Made by a program: the position numbers and the translations under genes. Below, piece by piece: positions 5,773-21,271 of a stretch of DNA of 58,488 nucleotides. The stretch spans positions 1-58,488 of the forward strand of contig JAIRWR010000130.1 of the NCBI GenBank assembly GCA_031268885.1. Reading direction: 5' to 3'. The DNA comes from Synergistaceae bacterium (GTDB lineage Bacteria; Synergistota; Synergistia; Synergistales; Synergistaceae). Under the pieces are notes generated by a model. It was not told where the DNA came from and did not search any database. It worked only from the letters and a program-made list of their open reading frames with translations. The number at the start of each line of letters is the position of its first letter. Position 1 is the first letter of the stretch.

Positions 5773-6981
5773 TTGAAGAGGTCTCTTGTCAGTATTTTGA
5801 TAACCGGCGCTCTCTTTTTGACTGTCTTCAGCTCCGCGTCAGACGGCGCGCGGCAAGGTGGCGGCAGCCTCTCCGCCGGCGCTGTGAATGGGCTTGCGGC
5901 GAAGCTGTACGGCAAGCTCGCGGCGCGGGGCGAAAACCTGTGCTTCTCTCCATACAGCGTCTCGTTAGCGTTTGCCATGACATACGCCGGCGCGGCCGGT
6001 GAGACGGCGGCCGAGTTGAGTGACGTGTTCGGGTTTGGAGAGGGCATACACCAGTCCAATGAGATTCTCACGCGGAACATTCTGGGCGCTCCGGAGGATG
6101 CGGGCGAACTCGTCGTGGCAAACTCAATCTGGCCCCGCAAGGGATTCAAGATGCTTGATCCTTTTGTAAGAATACTTGACGAAAACTACAAGGCCGAAAT
6201 ACGGCCTCAGGACTTTAAAAACAACCCCGGCGCCGCCAAAAACAGGATAAACGAGTGGACGGAGAGCAGAACGAAGGGTAAGATTCGTGATCTGATCGCG
6301 GATGGCGCGCTCGATGCCAATACGGCGATGGTATTGGCTAACGGCGTTTATTTCAAGGCGAGATGGTTGTCGCCCTTTTTAAAGGAGACGACTGAGACCG
6401 CGGAATTTTACACAGATACCGGGGTTGTCTCCCAGGCTCAGATTATGAAGAACACCGGGGCATACGAGTACTTCGAGAACGGCATGATTCAAGCCGTAAA
6501 GGTTCCGTATCTGAGGGGAGCTTACTCCATGACGCTGATACTGCCGAAGGAACGCGGGGGAATAAACGCGCTGGAGGAGGCCTTTGTCTCTGGGAACTTG
6601 AATATCTCGATGAATGACACGGAGCGAAGGAGAGTGGAGCTGTCAGTCCCGAGGTTCAAAATAGAGAGCAAGTTCAGCTTGAATAAAACAATCGGCGAGC
6701 TAGGAGCGCCCGCCGCGTTTAATCCCTCCTCGGCCGACTTCTCCGGGATAAACGGCGAAAGGGATCTCTTTATAAGCGACGCGATACACGCCGCGTTTGT
6801 AAATGTTGACGAAGATGGGACAGAGGCCGCCGGCGCGACAGCAATCGCCATAAGCCGCTCATCGGCGATGCTTGATACTGCCGATCCAGTGATATTCCGC
6901 GCGGATCACCCCTTTTTGTTCACCATCAGAGATGAAATGAGCGGAACTATCCTGTTTATGGGGAAGTTGGCGCGTCCTTAG
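5773..6981 (+). CDS. secreted serpin (serine/cysteine protease inhibitor)
   Basis: A TTG start follows the ribosome site GGAGG (5761-5765). After a signal peptide (residues ~1-25), the ~375-residue body has the serpin fold signatures: FSPYSVSLAFAMTYAGA near the N-terminus, VLANGVYFKARW, the NTGAYEYFEN strand, and the C-terminal FRADHPFLFTIRD. The reactive loop hinge DGTEAAGATAIAI has the small-residue pattern of inhibitory serpins that can insert into sheet A. Counting from the hinge puts the scissile bond near Arg-Ser-Ser-Ala (SRSSAM), suggesting a trypsin-like or small-residue-cleaving target, which is inference. It follows a protease gene and converges with the LRR protein gene 7 bases away. 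Confidence 0.9.
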   Translation: MKRSLVSILITGALFLTVFSSASDGARQGGGSLSAGAVNGLAAKLYGKLAARGENLCFSPYSVSLAFAMTYAGAAGETAAELSDVFGFGEGIHQSNEILTRNILGAPEDAGELVVANSIWPRKGFKMLDPFVRILDENYKAEIRPQDFKNNPGAAKNRINEWTESRTKGKIRDLIADGALDANTAMVLANGVYFKARWLSPFLKETTETAEFYTDTGVVSQAQIMKNTGAYEYFENGMIQAVKVPYLRGAYSMTLILPKERGGINALEEAFVSGNLNISMNDTERRRVELSVPRFKIESKFSLNKTIGELGAPAAFNPSSADFSGINGERDLFISDAIHAAFVNVDEDGTEAAGATAIAISRSSAMLDTADPVIFRADHPFLFTIRDEMSGTILFMGKLARP

Positions 6982-6988
6982 GCTTTGC

Positions 6989-9900
6989 TCACTTTCCGGG
7001 CGAGCTGTTGCTGTCGCCGCAGCCGCCCGAACCGCTTCCGTTCGAACCGTTGCCGGGAGCGCCGCCAGAACTTCCCGTCTTGCTTCTTCCGCCGTCTCCC
7101 TTATTTCCACCATTGGACAACTGATTGTTCTCTCTCCCGGTTCTGCCGTCGGGGCCTCGGATGCCCTCAATCACGCCCGCGCCCTGAGTCGTAGTCTCTG
7201 TGATTATGTCAACCCTCCCGGTTATCGGGTCTGTGACCTCGACTGAGCTTACCGTTACCGAGTCCTGTACCAGCGTCATCGAAAAGCTCTCCTTGCTGTC
7301 GGTGTTCGTGTGCGTGACATAGCTGGCATCGCTCAGCTCTTCCACCGTCACGCGCTCGTATCTCTCAGTAACCTCGACGAACAGCGTCGTGCCCCTTATG
7401 CCTATCGAACTCTTAGGGGTGGTCAGCTTGAATCCTCTCGGGTTGAATTTGACTATCGCTCCGGTTATCACCCTGACAACTCCGTGAACCAGGCCGACAT
7501 TGAAGCGGTTTCTCTCGCTGCTGAAGACCAGCTCTTTGATGTCGATCCTGGCGCCGCTCCCCATCTCCAGTATAGAGTCGTCCAGAAAACGAATCACCGC
7601 GGAACCGGTCGGATCGGTCTCTAAGATGTCATACTCGTATATATTGGACCCGGCCACGAGGTCTACTCTCGCCATGTCCCGCGTGGCAGAGAGGCTGCCC
7701 TCCACGGTCTCAACATGCCCCTTGGGCTCATCGTTGTCGGCAAAGACCGCGGACTCGCATGAAGCTGCCCATGACAGAATCGAAACAGAAATAAGCAGCA
7801 GTATGGTAAAAAGACGCCTCAGCCGCGGATTGCTCTTTCTGATGAGTGCGGCAATGAAAACCACCGCCAGGGCCGCCGCTCCTCCATTACAGCCTCCGCC
7901 GCCGCTGTTGCCTCCGCCCTCCAGCGAGTTATCTCCAGGAGCGAATCCGTCCTTCCATCGGTTCAGCCATATTGGGTCCACTATCGAGTTGTCGTTCGAT
8001 CCGTCGGGGACTATGAGATAACTCCCGCTCTCGTACGCCTCAAGGAGAGTGTCGTCTAAGACGTAATATGACAGGGTAATATCGAGCGCGCTCCCACCAG
8101 TTATCTCCAGTATACCGAGTTCAATTGCCCTCTGAGGAGTCAGTATCCCATCCACCAGACGGGTATACCAGCCCGTCCGTTCTCCCTGGTGAATCTCCTT
8201 CTGTATTACGTAGTACTTGAATATGTCGTCGAGGTGATCACGCGGATTCGCCAGTATCTGGGAGGCCATGGATGATCCCAGCGCGCTCGCCAGGTCGTCG
8301 AAGTTCACCGTCACTCTGTATGTCATGGGCACTATGCCCTTCCTGCCGGAGGAGACCGCGCGAGATATATCGATTGTTACGTCAGCGGCGTCCTTTCCCG
8401 TAGGGACATAGCAGTCAGGCAGCTTGGATCCGTCCGGCTTACGCACGTAGATGTCCGCGTTGTCGAGATTATTGACAAACTGCCAGTCGGAGGGGAGGTC
8501 TTTCATGGGTTGCTGTGTGTTGCCCGGCAGAATCACGATCTCGCTGGATATGAGCTGTCTATTAGCCTCCTCGAAGCTCTCCACTACAGGGTCTGTTATT
8601 GCCAAGGATGTCGGGAGGTCGTCGGCCACCACGAGAACTTTCTCCGCGCTCTTACTGACAGTTGAGCCGTCGGAGAGTGTCTGAGAAGCCTCGAAACCGA
8701 TCAGAGCCTTGCCGTATATCGAGCCCAGGGGGGCAGCGCGAGAGGCGGATGCCCTCGGTTCCTGCGGCAGCGCTGTTATCCGGACGCTGTACGGCGAGAG
8801 GACATCGGCGCTCACGAGCGCGGCGCTCTGGGCGTCAAACAGCACTCTGATATTCGGCGCTGGGCTCGGAGACGAGCCGTCCGCAGTAGCGTATGTCACG
8901 GTGATGGCAAAGCTGCCGCCGGGCGCTAATGTCAGCGGAAAGCCGGAGATCTCGATGGACTCCGCGGCCAGGTCACCGGAACCCGGCGTCCACTTAGCGT
9001 AGAGCGTGATGCCGGACGTCACCGTGTCGGTGGGAAAATTCCAGACGTTTTCGTAGGCTGATTCCTTGTACCAGCCGCCGAATGAATAGCCTGCTTTGGT
9101 CGGAGGCGCCGGGGCGGTTATCGTCGAGCCGGATGTCACGTTCGGAAGCGACGCCACCGCGCTGCCTCCCTGGGAGTCGAACGTGACGGTGAAGGTCGCC
9201 GTCCATTTCGCATAGAGCGTAATATTTGCCGTCACCGTGTCCGTGGAAAAATCCCACTCGTTGACACAGGCTGATTCCTTGTACCAGCCGCCGAATGAAT
9301 AGCCTGCTTTGGTCGGAGGCGCCGGGGCGGTTATCGTCGAGCCGGATGTTACATTAGGAAGCGACGCCACCGCGCTGCCTCCCTGAGAGTCGAATGTGAC
9401 GGTGAAATCCGGTAGCGGCGCGGTCGTAACGGTCAGGCTTATGGATGCCGTGAGAAACGGCGTTACTGTCCCAAACGTAATCTTCGCGCGGTAGCTACCG
9501 CTGTCCGACGCGCTGGCGCCGCTTTTGGAATAAGTCCTGCTCACGGCTCCGCTCAAGGGCGTCCAAGATCCCGGGCTCGTCTCCCTCTCCCATTGATACG
9601 ACGCTCCGGCAATCTCCATGCACGAAAACGATATGCTCTCCCCGGTTGATACGGTCGTCGAGCCCGTCGGAGTGATGGAGCCGTCGGACATTGTGATTTT
9701 AGAGCCTGCCGGCGGCGTCCACATCGCATATGAAGACGTGTCCGGCACCAGAAAGATCAGGTCGCTCGCTGTACCATCGAAAGCGTAGGAAGAAATAACT
9801 GGCGGCGAAGCTGGCGACATCGCGACGGACTTGAGCGAGGCGCAATCTTTAAACGCTTCGGAGCCGATATCCGTCAGAGCCGGCGGTATCGCTATGGCCG

Positions 9901-10666
9901 CGAGCGAGGTACAGCCTTCAAACGCCTTATAGCCGATAACGGTCGGAACCGTACAAGAGGACATATCCAGCTGTGTCAGGCTCTTGCAACCAAAAAACTC
10001 ATAAACGTCAATTGAGATCACTCCGGCCGGAAGACTCGTCAGCGCCAGGCTTTCACAATTGTAAAACGCGCTGCTGCCAAGCGTGATCAATCCGGTTGGA
10101 AGGCTCGTCAGCGCCAGGCTTGTACAACTGTCAAACGCGGCGTCGCCAATTGAGATCAATCCAGGCGGCAGGTCTATCGACGTCAGGCCTGCGCAACCGC
10201 TGAACGCGATATTGCCAATCGAGGTCAATCCGGGTGGCAGGTCTATCGACGTCAGGCCTGCGCAACCGTCAAACGCATAATCCGGCAGAGCGGTTATAGG
10301 CACTCCCGATATGTCTATCGTCACTATCGAACTCAAAGTTCTGACGGACGAGAAATCCGTATCGTCCATGGCTGTCCCGCTCACGGTCAGAGACGTGATA
10401 TCCGCGGAAACATCGCCCGATAACATAGTCGTTATCACAGTGCCAAGATCCCCGGTCGCAAAAGTGTCGATGACCATATTAGGGCGGATCCACGAGTTTG
10501 CGGCCAAGGCAAAGGGCGCGCGGAGAAAGACAGCCGCGAATATCAGTGAGAAGAAGACGAAAGACCGGAAGGATAAATTTGTAATGGATGGAAGTTTATG
10601 TCTGTGTGTCCGCGAAGTTGTCTCTGCCGCTGAATTTTGAGCATTGGAAAGAATCACTATTACCAT
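6989..10666 (-). CDS. large surface protein: LRR + Ig + InlB repeats + internal Synergist-CTERM-like signal, fused to a FecR domain
   Basis: 1225 residues by the longest start. Signal peptide at about 33-55 (FRSFVFFSLIFAAVF...ALA). Residues ~125-300 hold BspA-type leucine-rich repeats (LPxGLxSIGxxAF). An Ig-like domain follows (~310-410). Two InlB/Flg_new repeats (TITAPAPPTKAGYSFGGWY) lie at ~415-560, then a long region shared with the second paralog. At ~917-940 comes GGGGCNGGAAAL, a hydrophobic stretch and basic residues, which is a complete C-terminal sorting signal; yet the frame continues with a second hydrophobic segment (LFTILLLISV) and a FecR domain (~985-1100, SSIGIRGTTLFV) ending in a Gly/Ser/Asn-rich tail. 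A GTG at 10657 is an alternative start. Confidence 0.8.
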   Translation of the reverse strand: MVIVILSNAQNSAAETTSRTHRHKLPSITNLSFRSFVFFSLIFAAVFLRAPFALAANSWIRPNMVIDTFATGDLGTVITTMLSGDVSADITSLTVSGTAMDDTDFSSVRTLSSIVTIDISGVPITALPDYAFDGCAGLTSIDLPPGLTSIGNIAFSGCAGLTSIDLPPGLISIGDAAFDSCTSLALTSLPTGLITLGSSAFYNCESLALTSLPAGVISIDVYEFFGCKSLTQLDMSSCTVPTVIGYKAFEGCTSLAAIAIPPALTDIGSEAFKDCASLKSVAMSPASPPVISSYAFDGTASDLIFLVPDTSSYAMWTPPAGSKITMSDGSITPTGSTTVSTGESISFSCMEIAGASYQWERETSPGSWTPLSGAVSRTYSKSGASASDSGSYRAKITFGTVTPFLTASISLTVTTAPLPDFTVTFDSQGGSAVASLPNVTSGSTITAPAPPTKAGYSFGGWYKESACVNEWDFSTDTVTANITLYAKWTATFTVTFDSQGGSAVASLPNVTSGSTITAPAPPTKAGYSFGGWYKESAYENVWNFPTDTVTSGITLYAKWTPGSGDLAAESIEISGFPLTLAPGGSFAITVTYATADGSSPSPAPNIRVLFDAQSAALVSADVLSPYSVRITALPQEPRASASRAAPLGSIYGKALIGFEASQTLSDGSTVSKSAEKVLVVADDLPTSLAITDPVVESFEEANRQLISSEIVILPGNTQQPMKDLPSDWQFVNNLDNADIYVRKPDGSKLPDCYVPTGKDAADVTIDISRAVSSGRKGIVPMTYRVTVNFDDLASALGSSMASQILANPRDHLDDIFKYYVIQKEIHQGERTGWYTRLVDGILTPQRAIELGILEITGGSALDITLSYYVLDDTLLEAYESGSYLIVPDGSNDNSIVDPIWLNRWKDGFAPGDNSLEGGGNSGGGGCNGGAAALAVVFIAALIRKSNPRLRRLFTILLLISVSILSWAASCESAVFADNDEPKGHVETVEGSLSATRDMARVDLVAGSNIYEYDILETDPTGSAVIRFLDDSILEMGSGARIDIKELVFSSERNRFNVGLVHGVVRVITGAIVKFNPRGFKLTTPKSSIGIRGTTLFVEVTERYERVTVEELSDASYVTHTNTDSKESFSMTLVQDSVTVSSVEVTDPITGRVDIITETTTQGAGVIEGIRGPDGRTGRENNQLSNGGNKGDGGRSKTGSSGGAPGNGSNGSGSGGCGDSNSSPGK
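8985..9411 (-). repeat. tandem 213-bp repeat (two InlB-type modules)
   Basis: Two nearly identical units with a period of 213 bases (71 codons) lie inside the surface protein; for example the same GGCTGATTCCTTGTACCAGC begins at 9056 and 9269. Each encodes one InlB B-repeat (Listeria-Bacteroides repeat). The few base differences indicate recent duplication. Confidence 0.8.
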
Positions 10667-18119: not shown

Positions 18120-18140
18120 GCGAACGTCTTCTAAGCGAAC
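18111..18140. repeat. 15-bp tandem duplication at the dhaK stop codon
   Basis: GTCTTCTAAGCGAAC occurs twice in direct succession (18111-18125, 18126-18140); the first copy carries the dhaK stop. The duplication is silent for the protein. Confidence 0.8.
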
Positions 18141-18178
18141 TTTGAAGGAGACGCGAATCTGGAGAGTCGTGTATTATT

Positions 18179-18216
18179 GGAAGGGACGGCCGATACCCGC
18201 GTCCCTTCCGTCTGTT
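18179..18216 (+). terminator. intrinsic terminator of dhaLK
   Basis: GGAAGGGACG (18179-18188) pairs with CGTCCCTTCC (18200-18209), followed by GTCTGTTTTG. Confidence 0.8.
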
Positions 18217-18257
18217 TTGTGCCCCCATGACATCCATCTCTTGGCGTTTGCGCGCCT

Positions 18258-18296
18258 TACATAAAACAACGTCGCGCCCTTTATGCTTATGGCGCT
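18258..18296 (-). pseudogene. short remnant of a FecR domain behind the second LRR protein
   Basis: Immediately after the stop of the second LRR protein, in another frame, the minus strand encodes SAISIKGATLFYV. This lines up residue by residue with SSIGIRGTTLFVEV of the FecR part of the first LRR protein, and most bases of the first ten codons agree. About 250 residues that lie between CTERM and this motif in the first copy are missing here. Confidence 0.5.
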
Positions 18297-21271
18297 CAAC
18301 GCCTCATCAGCGAATCGCTCTTTATGGCGATGGCAGCAATGAAAAGTGTCATCAAGACCGCCGCTCCACCATTACAGCCCCCGCCTCCTCCATCTCCGCC
18401 CTCAAGCGAGTTGTCATCTGGCGCTGCGCCATCCTTCCACCGGTTTAGCCATATCGGGTCTACTATCAAGTTGTCGTTCAATCCGTCTGGGACTATCAGA
18501 TAACCTCCGCTCTCGTATGTTTCCAGAATGGAGTCGTCCAGAATATAATACGATAGAGTCATGTCAAGCGCGCTTCCTCCGGTTATGTCTAGTATGCCGA
18601 GTTCAATTGCCCTTTGCGGGGTCAGTATTCCGTCCACCAGGCGAGTGTACCAGCCCGTCCGTTCTCCCTGTTGGATCTCCTTTTGTATGACGTAGAACCC
18701 GAATATCTCGTCGAGATGGTTATACGGGTCTGCCAGTATCTGGGAGGCCATGGATGAGCCCAGCGCGTTCGCCAGGTCATCGGCGCTCATCGTCACCCTG
18801 TACGTCATGGGCACTATGCCATTCTTTCCGGGGGGCACGACACGAGATATGTCGATCACTATGTCAGCGGCGGCCTTTCCAGTAGGAGCGTAGCAGTCCG
18901 GCAGCTTGGACCCATCAGGCTCGCGCACGTAGATGTCAATGTTGTCGAGGCTGCCAACAGACTGCCAGTTGGAGGGGAGGTCTGTCATGGGCTGTTGGGT
19001 GTTGCCCGGGAGGATCACTATCCCGCTGGAGATAAGTTGTCTGTTAGCCTCCTGGAATCCCTCCGTCACCGGGGTTGTTATCTTTAAGGAGGTCGGGAGG
19101 CCGTCAGCCACAACGAGAGTCCTCTCCATACCCATCCGGACGGTCGAACCGTCGGAGAGTATCTGAGTTGCCTCGAAGCTGATCAGCGCCTCCCCATATA
19201 TCGAAGCTGTGGGAGCGGCGCGAAAGGCTGACGCCCTCGGCTCCTGAGGCAGCGCGATTATTCGCGCGCTGTACGAGGAGAGGATATCGACCCTCACGAG
19301 CGCGGCGCTCCGGGCATCCAGCGACACTCCGATATTCGGTACGGGGCTCGGAGGCGAGCCGTCCGCCGTAGTGTAGGTCACGGTGGCAGTAAAGCTGTTG
19401 CCGGGCGCCAATGTCAGCGGAAAGCCGGAGATCTCCATGGATTCGGCGGCCAGGCCGCCAGAGTCGGTATCAGGCGTCCAATTGGCATAGAGCGTGATGT
19501 CGGACGTCACCGTGTCTGTGGAAAAATTCCAGGCGTTGTTACATGCCGCTTCCTTGTACCAGCCTACGAATGAATATCCGGCTTGGGTCGGAACCGTCGG
19601 GGCGGTTATCGTCGAACCAGGCGTGGCTGTCGCCGCCGCCACAGCGCTTCCTCCTCGCGAGTCGAACGTTATGGTGTATGTTGGCGTCGGCACAACCGTC
19701 ACAGTCAAGCTTATGGGCGCTGTGTGAAACGGTGTTATTGCCCCGAACGTGATACTTGCCCGGTAGCTGCCGCTATCCGATACGGCCGCGTTGTTCTTTA
19801 AATAAGTTACGCTCGCGGCTCCGGCCAAGATCGTCCAAACTCCAGGACTTATCTCCTTCTGCCACTGATACGACGCTCCGACGATCTCCGCGCACGAAAA
19901 TGATATGTTCCCTCCTGCTGTGACAACCGTCGAGCCTGTCGGAGTGATAGAGCCGTCGGATATTGTGATTTTAGATCCCACCGGCGGCGTCCACGATGTA
20001 TATAAAACCGTGTCTGGCACTAGAAAAACTAGGCTGCTCGCTACGCCTGAGAAAGCATCGGACGCAATGGTTGTTGGTAAAACTGGCGGCATCGCGACGA
20101 CTTCGAGAAAGTAACAATCTTCAAACGCGTTGGAGCTGATCATCGTCAGAGACGTACAGGAGGACATATCCAGCCATGTCAGGCTCGCGCAATCGTAAAA
20201 CGCGTAGTCGCCGATCGAAGTCACTCCGGCAGGCAGATCTGTCAGCGCTAAGTTCGCGCAATCGTAGAACGCGTAGTCGCCGATCAGAGTTACTCCGGCA
20301 GGCAGATTCGTCAGCGTTAAGTTCGTGCAGTTGACAAACGCATGGCTGCCGATCGAGGTCACTCCGGACGGCAGACTCGTCAGCGCTAAGTTCGCGCAGT
20401 TGACAAACGCGGCATCTCCAATCGAGGTCAATCCGGCGGGCAGGGTCGTTAACGCTAGGTTAACGCAATCGTAAAACGCGTAGTCGCCGATCGAAGTTAC
20501 TCCAGCAGGCAGATTCGTCAGCGCTAGATTCGCGCAGTTGTTAAACGTACCAAAGCCAATCGAGGTCACTCCGGCAGGTAGACTCGTCAGCGCTAGGTTC
20601 GTGCAGTTGTCAAACGTACCAAAGCCAATTGAGATCACTCCGGCGGGTAGACTCGTCAACGCTAAGTTCACGCAGTTGGCAAACGCGGAATCGCCGATCG
20701 AGTTCACTCCGGCAGGCAGACTCGTCAGCGCTAAGTTCCCGCAGAAGCTAAACGCGTCGTTGCCGATCGAAGTCACCCCGGCAGGCAGGCTTGTCAGCGC
20801 TAAGTTCCCGCAGAAGCTAAACGCATAGTCGCCGATTGAGGTTAATCCGGCAGGCAGGGTCACGTATTGGAGATTGTTCAAATCATAGAACGCGTAGTCT
20901 GGCAGAGCGGTTATAGTCACTCCCGATATGTCTATCGTCTCTATTGAACTCAGATTATCTGTGATAAACGTAAAATCCGCACCGTCCATGACAGCCCCGC
21001 TCACTGTAATAGAGGTTATGTCGGTATACGGACTGTCGCCTATTACGCCGGCAATGGCAGTACTCAGGCTGCCGGTCGAAAAGTTGTCGATGACCATATT
21101 AGGGCTGTTCCACGAGTTTGATGCCCAGGCAGATGGCGCATAGATGAATACAGCCGCGAATATCATCGCGAAAAAGACTAAAAATCGGAAGGATAATAAA
21201 TTTACAGAGAGGGACTTGGTTCTCTCCATCCTCGTACTCTGCCGTCGAATTTTGAGCATCGGTAAAAACAA
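18296..21271 (-). CDS. surface protein paralog: LRR + Ig + InlB repeat + C-terminal Synergist-CTERM-like signal
   Basis: 991 residues, paralogous over its length to the protein at 6989-10666. The signal peptide (LVFFAMIFAAVFIYAPSAWA) is followed by at least ten BspA-type leucine-rich repeats of 23 residues (LPAGVTSIGDYAFYDC), against four or five in the first copy. An Ig-like domain, one InlB repeat and the long conserved region (PGNTQQPM, QGERTGWYTRLVDGILTP) come next. The C-terminus is GGGGGCNGGAAV, a hydrophobic stretch, then LMRR and stop, the expected arrangement for a sorting signal. The start is uncertain (TTG 21271, ATG 21259 or ATG 21229). BspA-type proteins usually act in adhesion, and this one is exported and surface-anchored by inference. 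Confidence 0.8.
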   Translation of the reverse strand: MFLPMLKIRRQSTRMERTKSLSVNLLSFRFLVFFAMIFAAVFIYAPSAWASNSWNSPNMVIDNFSTGSLSTAIAGVIGDSPYTDITSITVSGAVMDGADFTFITDNLSSIETIDISGVTITALPDYAFYDLNNLQYVTLPAGLTSIGDYAFSFCGNLALTSLPAGVTSIGNDAFSFCGNLALTSLPAGVNSIGDSAFANCVNLALTSLPAGVISIGFGTFDNCTNLALTSLPAGVTSIGFGTFNNCANLALTNLPAGVTSIGDYAFYDCVNLALTTLPAGLTSIGDAAFVNCANLALTSLPSGVTSIGSHAFVNCTNLTLTNLPAGVTLIGDYAFYDCANLALTDLPAGVTSIGDYAFYDCASLTWLDMSSCTSLTMISSNAFEDCYFLEVVAMPPVLPTTIASDAFSGVASSLVFLVPDTVLYTSWTPPVGSKITISDGSITPTGSTVVTAGGNISFSCAEIVGASYQWQKEISPGVWTILAGAASVTYLKNNAAVSDSGSYRASITFGAITPFHTAPISLTVTVVPTPTYTITFDSRGGSAVAAATATPGSTITAPTVPTQAGYSFVGWYKEAACNNAWNFSTDTVTSDITLYANWTPDTDSGGLAAESMEISGFPLTLAPGNSFTATVTYTTADGSPPSPVPNIGVSLDARSAALVRVDILSSYSARIIALPQEPRASAFRAAPTASIYGEALISFEATQILSDGSTVRMGMERTLVVADGLPTSLKITTPVTEGFQEANRQLISSGIVILPGNTQQPMTDLPSNWQSVGSLDNIDIYVREPDGSKLPDCYAPTGKAAADIVIDISRVVPPGKNGIVPMTYRVTMSADDLANALGSSMASQILADPYNHLDEIFGFYVIQKEIQQGERTGWYTRLVDGILTPQRAIELGILDITGGSALDMTLSYYILDDSILETYESGGYLIVPDGLNDNLIVDPIWLNRWKDGAAPDDNSLEGGDGGGGGCNGGAAVLMTLFIAAIAIKSDSLMRR
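20195..20885 (-). repeat. array of about ten 69-bp leucine-rich-repeat units
   Basis: Each unit of 69 bases encodes one 23-residue repeat of the LPAGVTSIG..AF..C.NLALT type. Neighbouring units are very similar at DNA level, so the array is likely to change in copy number by slippage or recombination. Confidence 0.8.

Follow-up and report, generated by a model that had tools for sequence, protein, structure and literature searches.

Directly behind the stop codon of the second of two paralogous surface-protein genes, the minus strand of the window (the whole 58,488-nt stretch of Synergistaceae DNA that was analysed) carries a short scrap of a FecR gene. The remnant is real and is a case of ordinary gene decay, and the account given of it in the preliminary description is mostly right. 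In all probability, the scrap is a functionless pseudogene remnant of a dead FecR gene, left by an internal deletion of about 400 nt. The features concerned are the following.

6989-10666, minus strand: copy 1 of the surface-protein gene, one ORF of 1225 aa with LRR_5, Flg_new, a stalk and a CTERM-like segment, then FecR (Pfam)
6989-7822, minus strand: FecR part of copy 1, an in-frame fusion (PF04773 at residues 1014-1108)
18120-18264, minus strand: remaining gap to the convergent Dak1 gene, with a strong hairpin; FecR similarity was not found in it
18258-18296, minus strand: the stretch first described, with the translation SAISIKGATLFYV, out of frame with copy 2
18265-18290, minus strand: core of the FecR remnant (ISIKGATLF), homologous to 7380-7405 of copy 1
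18296-18298, minus strand: TGA stop of copy 2, at the putative deletion junction (anchor spacing: copy 1, 408 nt; copy 2, 8 nt)
18299-18307, minus strand: final three codons before the copy 2 stop, ATGAGGCGT (MRR), aligned by eye
18296-21271, minus strand: copy 2, 991 aa, with LRR_5, an Flg_new repeat, a stalk and a CTERM-like end, without FecR (Pfam, NCBIfam)

Copy 1 is an in-frame fusion of a surface protein and a FecR protein. Its FecR part matches PF04773 with 41.2 bits in the genome search and 36.6 bits in the protein search (cut-off 24), and reading of the sequence revealed no ATG, GTG or TTG at the start of this part or in its signal-like segment. The CTERM-like sorting segment of copy 1 is internal, with a second hydrophobic stretch and FecR downstream in frame; between the two hydrophobic stretches, whose peak windows are 926-942 and 952-968, lies a short basic loop. 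A serpin gene (5773-6981, plus strand; PF00079, E 7e-101) faces copy 1 tail to tail and has a 55% relative in G003 and no match in G001.

Pairwise alignment of copy 1 with copy 2 yielded a significant local match beyond the LRR gene. The best local alignment beyond the stop pairs 18290-18265 of copy 2 with 7405-7380 in the FecR part of copy 1; it is ungapped, with 22 of 26 bases identical, and all four mismatches are transitions. The core begins 5 nt behind the copy 2 stop, in the same order and sense as in copy 1, whose FecR part contains SSIGIRGTTLFVEV, the counterpart of SAISIKGATLFYV. The first base of SAISIKGATLFYV is the last base of the TGA stop, and its frame differs from the reading frame of copy 2. 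The claim that the minus strand holds a FecR match in another frame behind this stop is therefore confirmed, both by the 22/26 identity and by a blastn comparison of the copy 2 tail (176 nt) with the FecR part of copy 1 (834 nt), which gave E 1.15e-4. Only some 26-33 nt can be aligned; about nine residues match FecR, in a frame that is open for 41 codons only, and no more FecR aligns further down the copy 2 tail (best score 19). At this length the scrap falls far short of a PF04773 domain, and the genome profile search with this domain matched only copy 1 (C103) and C124. What is seen is colinear homology to an intact paralogue, with the frame disrupted and most of the gene absent, as in a pseudogene remnant. 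In their C-terminal coding DNA, copies 1 and 2 agree at 814 of 1034 positions (78.7%), and here too most differences are transitions (152, vs 68 transversions); the scrap, at 22/26, has thus diverged to much the same degree as the gene preceding it.

The junction itself points to the way in which FecR was lost. In copy 2, ATGAGGCGT is followed at once by TGA, then by GCGCC and the core; in copy 1 the corresponding bases are CTGAGGCGT with no stop, so that FecR is read on in frame. From anchor to anchor, copy 1 measures 408 nt and copy 2 only 8 nt; copy 2 is thus shorter by about 400 nt net, which also shifts the frame. A two-gene form of the pair is found in the same genus in G001:C182, where GGAGG stands just before the TAG of the surface gene and the FecR start, ATGAGGCGT, follows 2 nt later. 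By eye, this start is the same as the end of copy 2, and the CTGAGGCGT of copy 1 differs from it by one change. Both the TAG and the GGAGG of G001:C182 are absent from the two window copies.

We infer that one single deletion took place in copy 2. Starting from a surface-protein/FecR unit present in two copies, the internal deletion of about 400 nt would have joined the first three FecR codons to bases from the middle of FecR, and would at the same time have shifted the frame and placed a TGA directly behind the CTERM-like end of copy 2. Most of the 5' half of FecR would have gone with it, the 3' half being lost or replaced. The hydrophobic anchor of copy 2 would thus have come back to the very C-terminus, and the scrap would now be 3' sequence with no independent function. 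Judging from the sequences, the common ancestor of copies 1 and 2 was probably already fused, and the deletion would have freed copy 2 again; alternatively, TAG and GGAGG may have been lost independently in each window copy. A candidate for a second FecR scrap, ATGAGGCG near the end of G001:C181, was rejected, as it could just as well be the original end of the surface gene carrying a single-base insertion; the tail of G001:C181 scores at background against FecR. No scrap was detectable behind the FecR-less copies G001:C181 and L083 (Cd354_bin13).

It appears unlikely that copy 2 is instead the product of duplication or conversion of the surface gene together with scrambled FecR pieces, a whole FecR never having been at the site. 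The Dak1 gene beside copy 2 has a relative in G001:C206 (98% identical protein, 88% identical DNA), behind which there is another gene, with neither a surface protein nor FecR, which implies that copy 2 either moved in here or was lost there. Because the surface-protein gene is entirely missing from its neighbourhood, the G001 Dak1 site cannot show an intermediate of the loss, and the synteny comparison neither refutes nor confirms the loss. When the genus was searched at the DNA level for orthologous junctions, only the junction itself, its paralogue and a 26-nt piece of C181 came up. For the flank on the other side of the copy 2 site, the best relative is 49% identical (G001), so that the insertion site is not bounded.

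Phylogeny also lends something to duplication or conversion, in that copies from the same genome tend to pair, as they would after a recent event of this kind. In the 12-row surface-protein tree, copies 1 and 2 pair (92/93), a result that also counts for the deletion reading, as do C181 and C182 (97/94); in the 10-row tree, C181 and C182 are together (94/94), while copies 1 and 2 are not resolved as a pair. The tree leaves out G020:C115, of which only 45 residues are available. This pairing is consistent with several rounds of duplication or gene conversion in which FecR was retained by one partner in G000, G001 and Cd354_bin13. In addition, nothing homologous to the 3' half of FecR was found in the copy 2 tail. 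However, on either view a deletion is required to bring an internal FecR piece next to the FecR start, and a single deletion is the simpler course.

It is very improbable that the 26-nt similarity is a chance one, selected by eye, between sequences that share no ancestor. The tail matches the copy 1 FecR with a score of 32, which none of 20 000 dinucleotide shuffles of the first 40 nt behind the stop reached; with the 200-nt tail against 931 nt, 3 of 2000 shuffles did so. Background scores give chance some room, since the match is short. Among 15 018 40-mers from 27 loci of relatives, 13 reach this score, 10 of them within FecR genes (by coordinates) and 3 elsewhere. Within the window, with the copy 1 FecR left out, 4 of 5760 overlapping 40-nt segments do so (the remnant site, one place in the coding region of copy 2, and a further site that accounts for two of the four), and two other window sites outscore the remnant, with 34 and 36. 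Ten other CTERM-like genes served as controls: the 40 nt immediately behind each of them score 13-24 against the copy 1 FecR. Against the FecR of G001:C182, the copy 2 tail scores 25, or 29 with the preceding base, vs controls of up to 24; this match starts with GAGC at the junction. Against the G074 FecR, it scores 18-20, no better than controls (13-29), and a clear excess over controls is thus limited to the copy 1 FecR as target. The match is strong when taken alone but short, and its place, order and sense add support: besides the shuffling result, all three are correct, the differences are transitions only, the FecR start codons are kept in front, and the pair is present elsewhere.

Least credible of all is a function of the stretch as a short peptide, or as a component of a terminator or regulatory RNA belonging to copy 2. 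In its favour, the frame of the scrap has a possible TTG start, overlapping the stop, from which it runs open for 41 codons; the 139-nt tail has a fairly good fold (z -1.81, equalled by 7 of 200 shuffles); and a strong hairpin lies between the convergent genes. Against it, the peptide resembles nothing seen beyond the FecR match, the terminator scan called none, and the junction is unmatched in the three other genomes of the genus, except for the 26-nt piece of G001:C181.

The loss of a FecR gene from copy 2 raises the question of how old the pair is. FecR lies directly behind a related surface gene in four cases from two genera, namely copy 1 (G000), G001:C182, G074:C108 and G020:C115. Over query residues 2-220, the FecR of G001:C182 shares 69% identity with the copy 1 FecR; both it and the FecR of G074:C108, which are separate genes, exceed the Pfam cut-off for PF04773. 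In G074:C108 and G020:C115, by eye, the stop of the surface gene overlaps the likely FecR start. In these two genomes, which belong to one genus, the order is surface protein, FecR, metallophosphatase, CHASE2-cyclase and GAF protein, all in one direction (L115, L064); the G020 neighbours and the G074 cyclase and GAF protein were assigned by Pfam, the G074 phosphatase only by resemblance. A FecR tree with 30 of the 40 FecR places put the four linked FecRs in one seven-row clade (87/92), together with three that are not beside such a gene. Several FecRs of the subfamily have a Gly/Ser-rich C-terminal tail with Cys and a DN-S-PG-like motif.

FecR is absent behind copy 2 and behind six relatives with at least 50% identity, namely G001:C181, G001:C189, G003:C58, G003:C221, G014:C62 and L083 (G074_C127, the second Cd354_bin13 gene). 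The same holds for five distant relatives (G012:C194, G021:C98, G021:C115, G000:C47 and G000:C93). The 3' flanks were read for 15 of the 29 surface-protein matches, the other 14 being at E 1e-5 or weaker. Two of the flanks have FecR directly behind (copy 1 and C182), two reach the contig end, and 11, including those of the five distant relatives, lack FecR over the length read, which for one of them is only the 72 nt behind the stop. Contigs of several genomes end inside surface genes (L055, L056, L064, L061, L022), as expected for near-identical repeats, and the counts of the pair are therefore lower bounds.

The same FecR family also occurs near a CHASE2-cyclase in G003 and G021, and in G003:C86 FecR adjoins the cyclase. 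The sequence read around the CHASE2-cyclase in G000, G001 and G002 yielded no FecR, the G002 contig beginning about 770 nt before the cyclase. In L067 (G001:C246, 537-3438), a FecR of this family stands behind a gene with CbiZ and Peripla_BP_2; the partners of FecR therefore vary.

The head of the surface protein varies as well. LRRs are present in the window proteins, but no LRR match was obtained in the two Cd354_bin13 (G074) proteins or in the available part of G003:C58. The FecR-linked G074 protein shares the repeat, stalk and C-terminus with the window proteins and keeps Flg_new (a Listeria-type repeat), with no LRR in Pfam at E 0.01; in the Cd354_bin13 pair, NCBIfam gave a weak beta-propeller similarity instead of LRR. 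Since the head domain changes while Flg_new stays, the ancestral partner, if any, is the repeat, stalk and C-terminus and not the LRR head.

Because it recurs in G001, G074 and G020, the pair looks old. The proposal that both loci once had an LRR-CTERM protein followed by FecR, and that the second lost most of it, is most likely correct in view of G001:C182, G074:C108 and G020:C115, but has to be amended in that the FecR of copy 1 is fused in frame. As for FecR being the ancestral partner of these surface proteins, this is only probable, and the LRR drops out of the claim, the G074 protein having none. Its reach is limited by the lack of FecR behind copy 2 and the six relatives, and by the FecRs near CHASE2-cyclases in G003 and G021.

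The surface proteins resemble Synerg-CTERM (TIGR04564) in an end of the type GGGCNGG-hydrophobic-RR, which is C-terminal in copy 2 and, unlike there, internal in copy 1, with FecR following in frame. TIGR04564 matches were obtained in 7 of the 10 proteins scanned (E 0.0006-0.49), all below the 22.5-bit cut-off (best 19.8); the copy 1 piece scores 18.6 bits and the copy 2 piece 13.6, both missing the cut-off, and L115, L058 and L060 gave no match. Classical FecR regulators are linked to ECF sigma factors and a TonB receptor. Here, the neighbours of the PF04773 FecR proteins in G074 and G020 are the surface protein, the metallophosphatase and the CHASE2-cyclase. A further likeness is found in Burkholderia, where an operon with a LysM-FecR gene beside a CHASE2 histidine kinase gene is described (PMC5192318). 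The likeness is that of a FecR gene near a CHASE2 sensor gene, as in G074, G020 and G003; the Burkholderia genes encode a kinase and a LysM-FecR, whereas here the sensor is a cyclase, and FecR stands behind a surface protein in G074 and G020.

It is conceivable, if rather doubtful, that surface protein and FecR form one contact-sensing module, which can be made as a single two-pass protein. If this were true, the CTERM-like segment of copy 1 would go in, the short basic loop would turn, and the old FecR signal segment would exit; in G074 and G020, FecR would relay surface contact to a cyclic-nucleotide signal via the in-line CHASE2-cyclase; and the loss of FecR in copy 2 would convert a sensing adhesin into a plain anchored one.

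Our literature search found no paper on FecR with CTERM and leucine-rich repeats, nor on FecR in Synergistaceae; for CTERM sorting in Synergistetes, the one hit was a gut review. Though a product of gene decay, the scrap is useful as a pointer to a recurrent, closely packed or overlapping surface-protein/FecR pair in two genera of Synergistaceae, continued in one of them by a metallophosphatase and a CHASE2-cyclase. It gives FecR proteins whose role is unknown a partner that can be put to the test.
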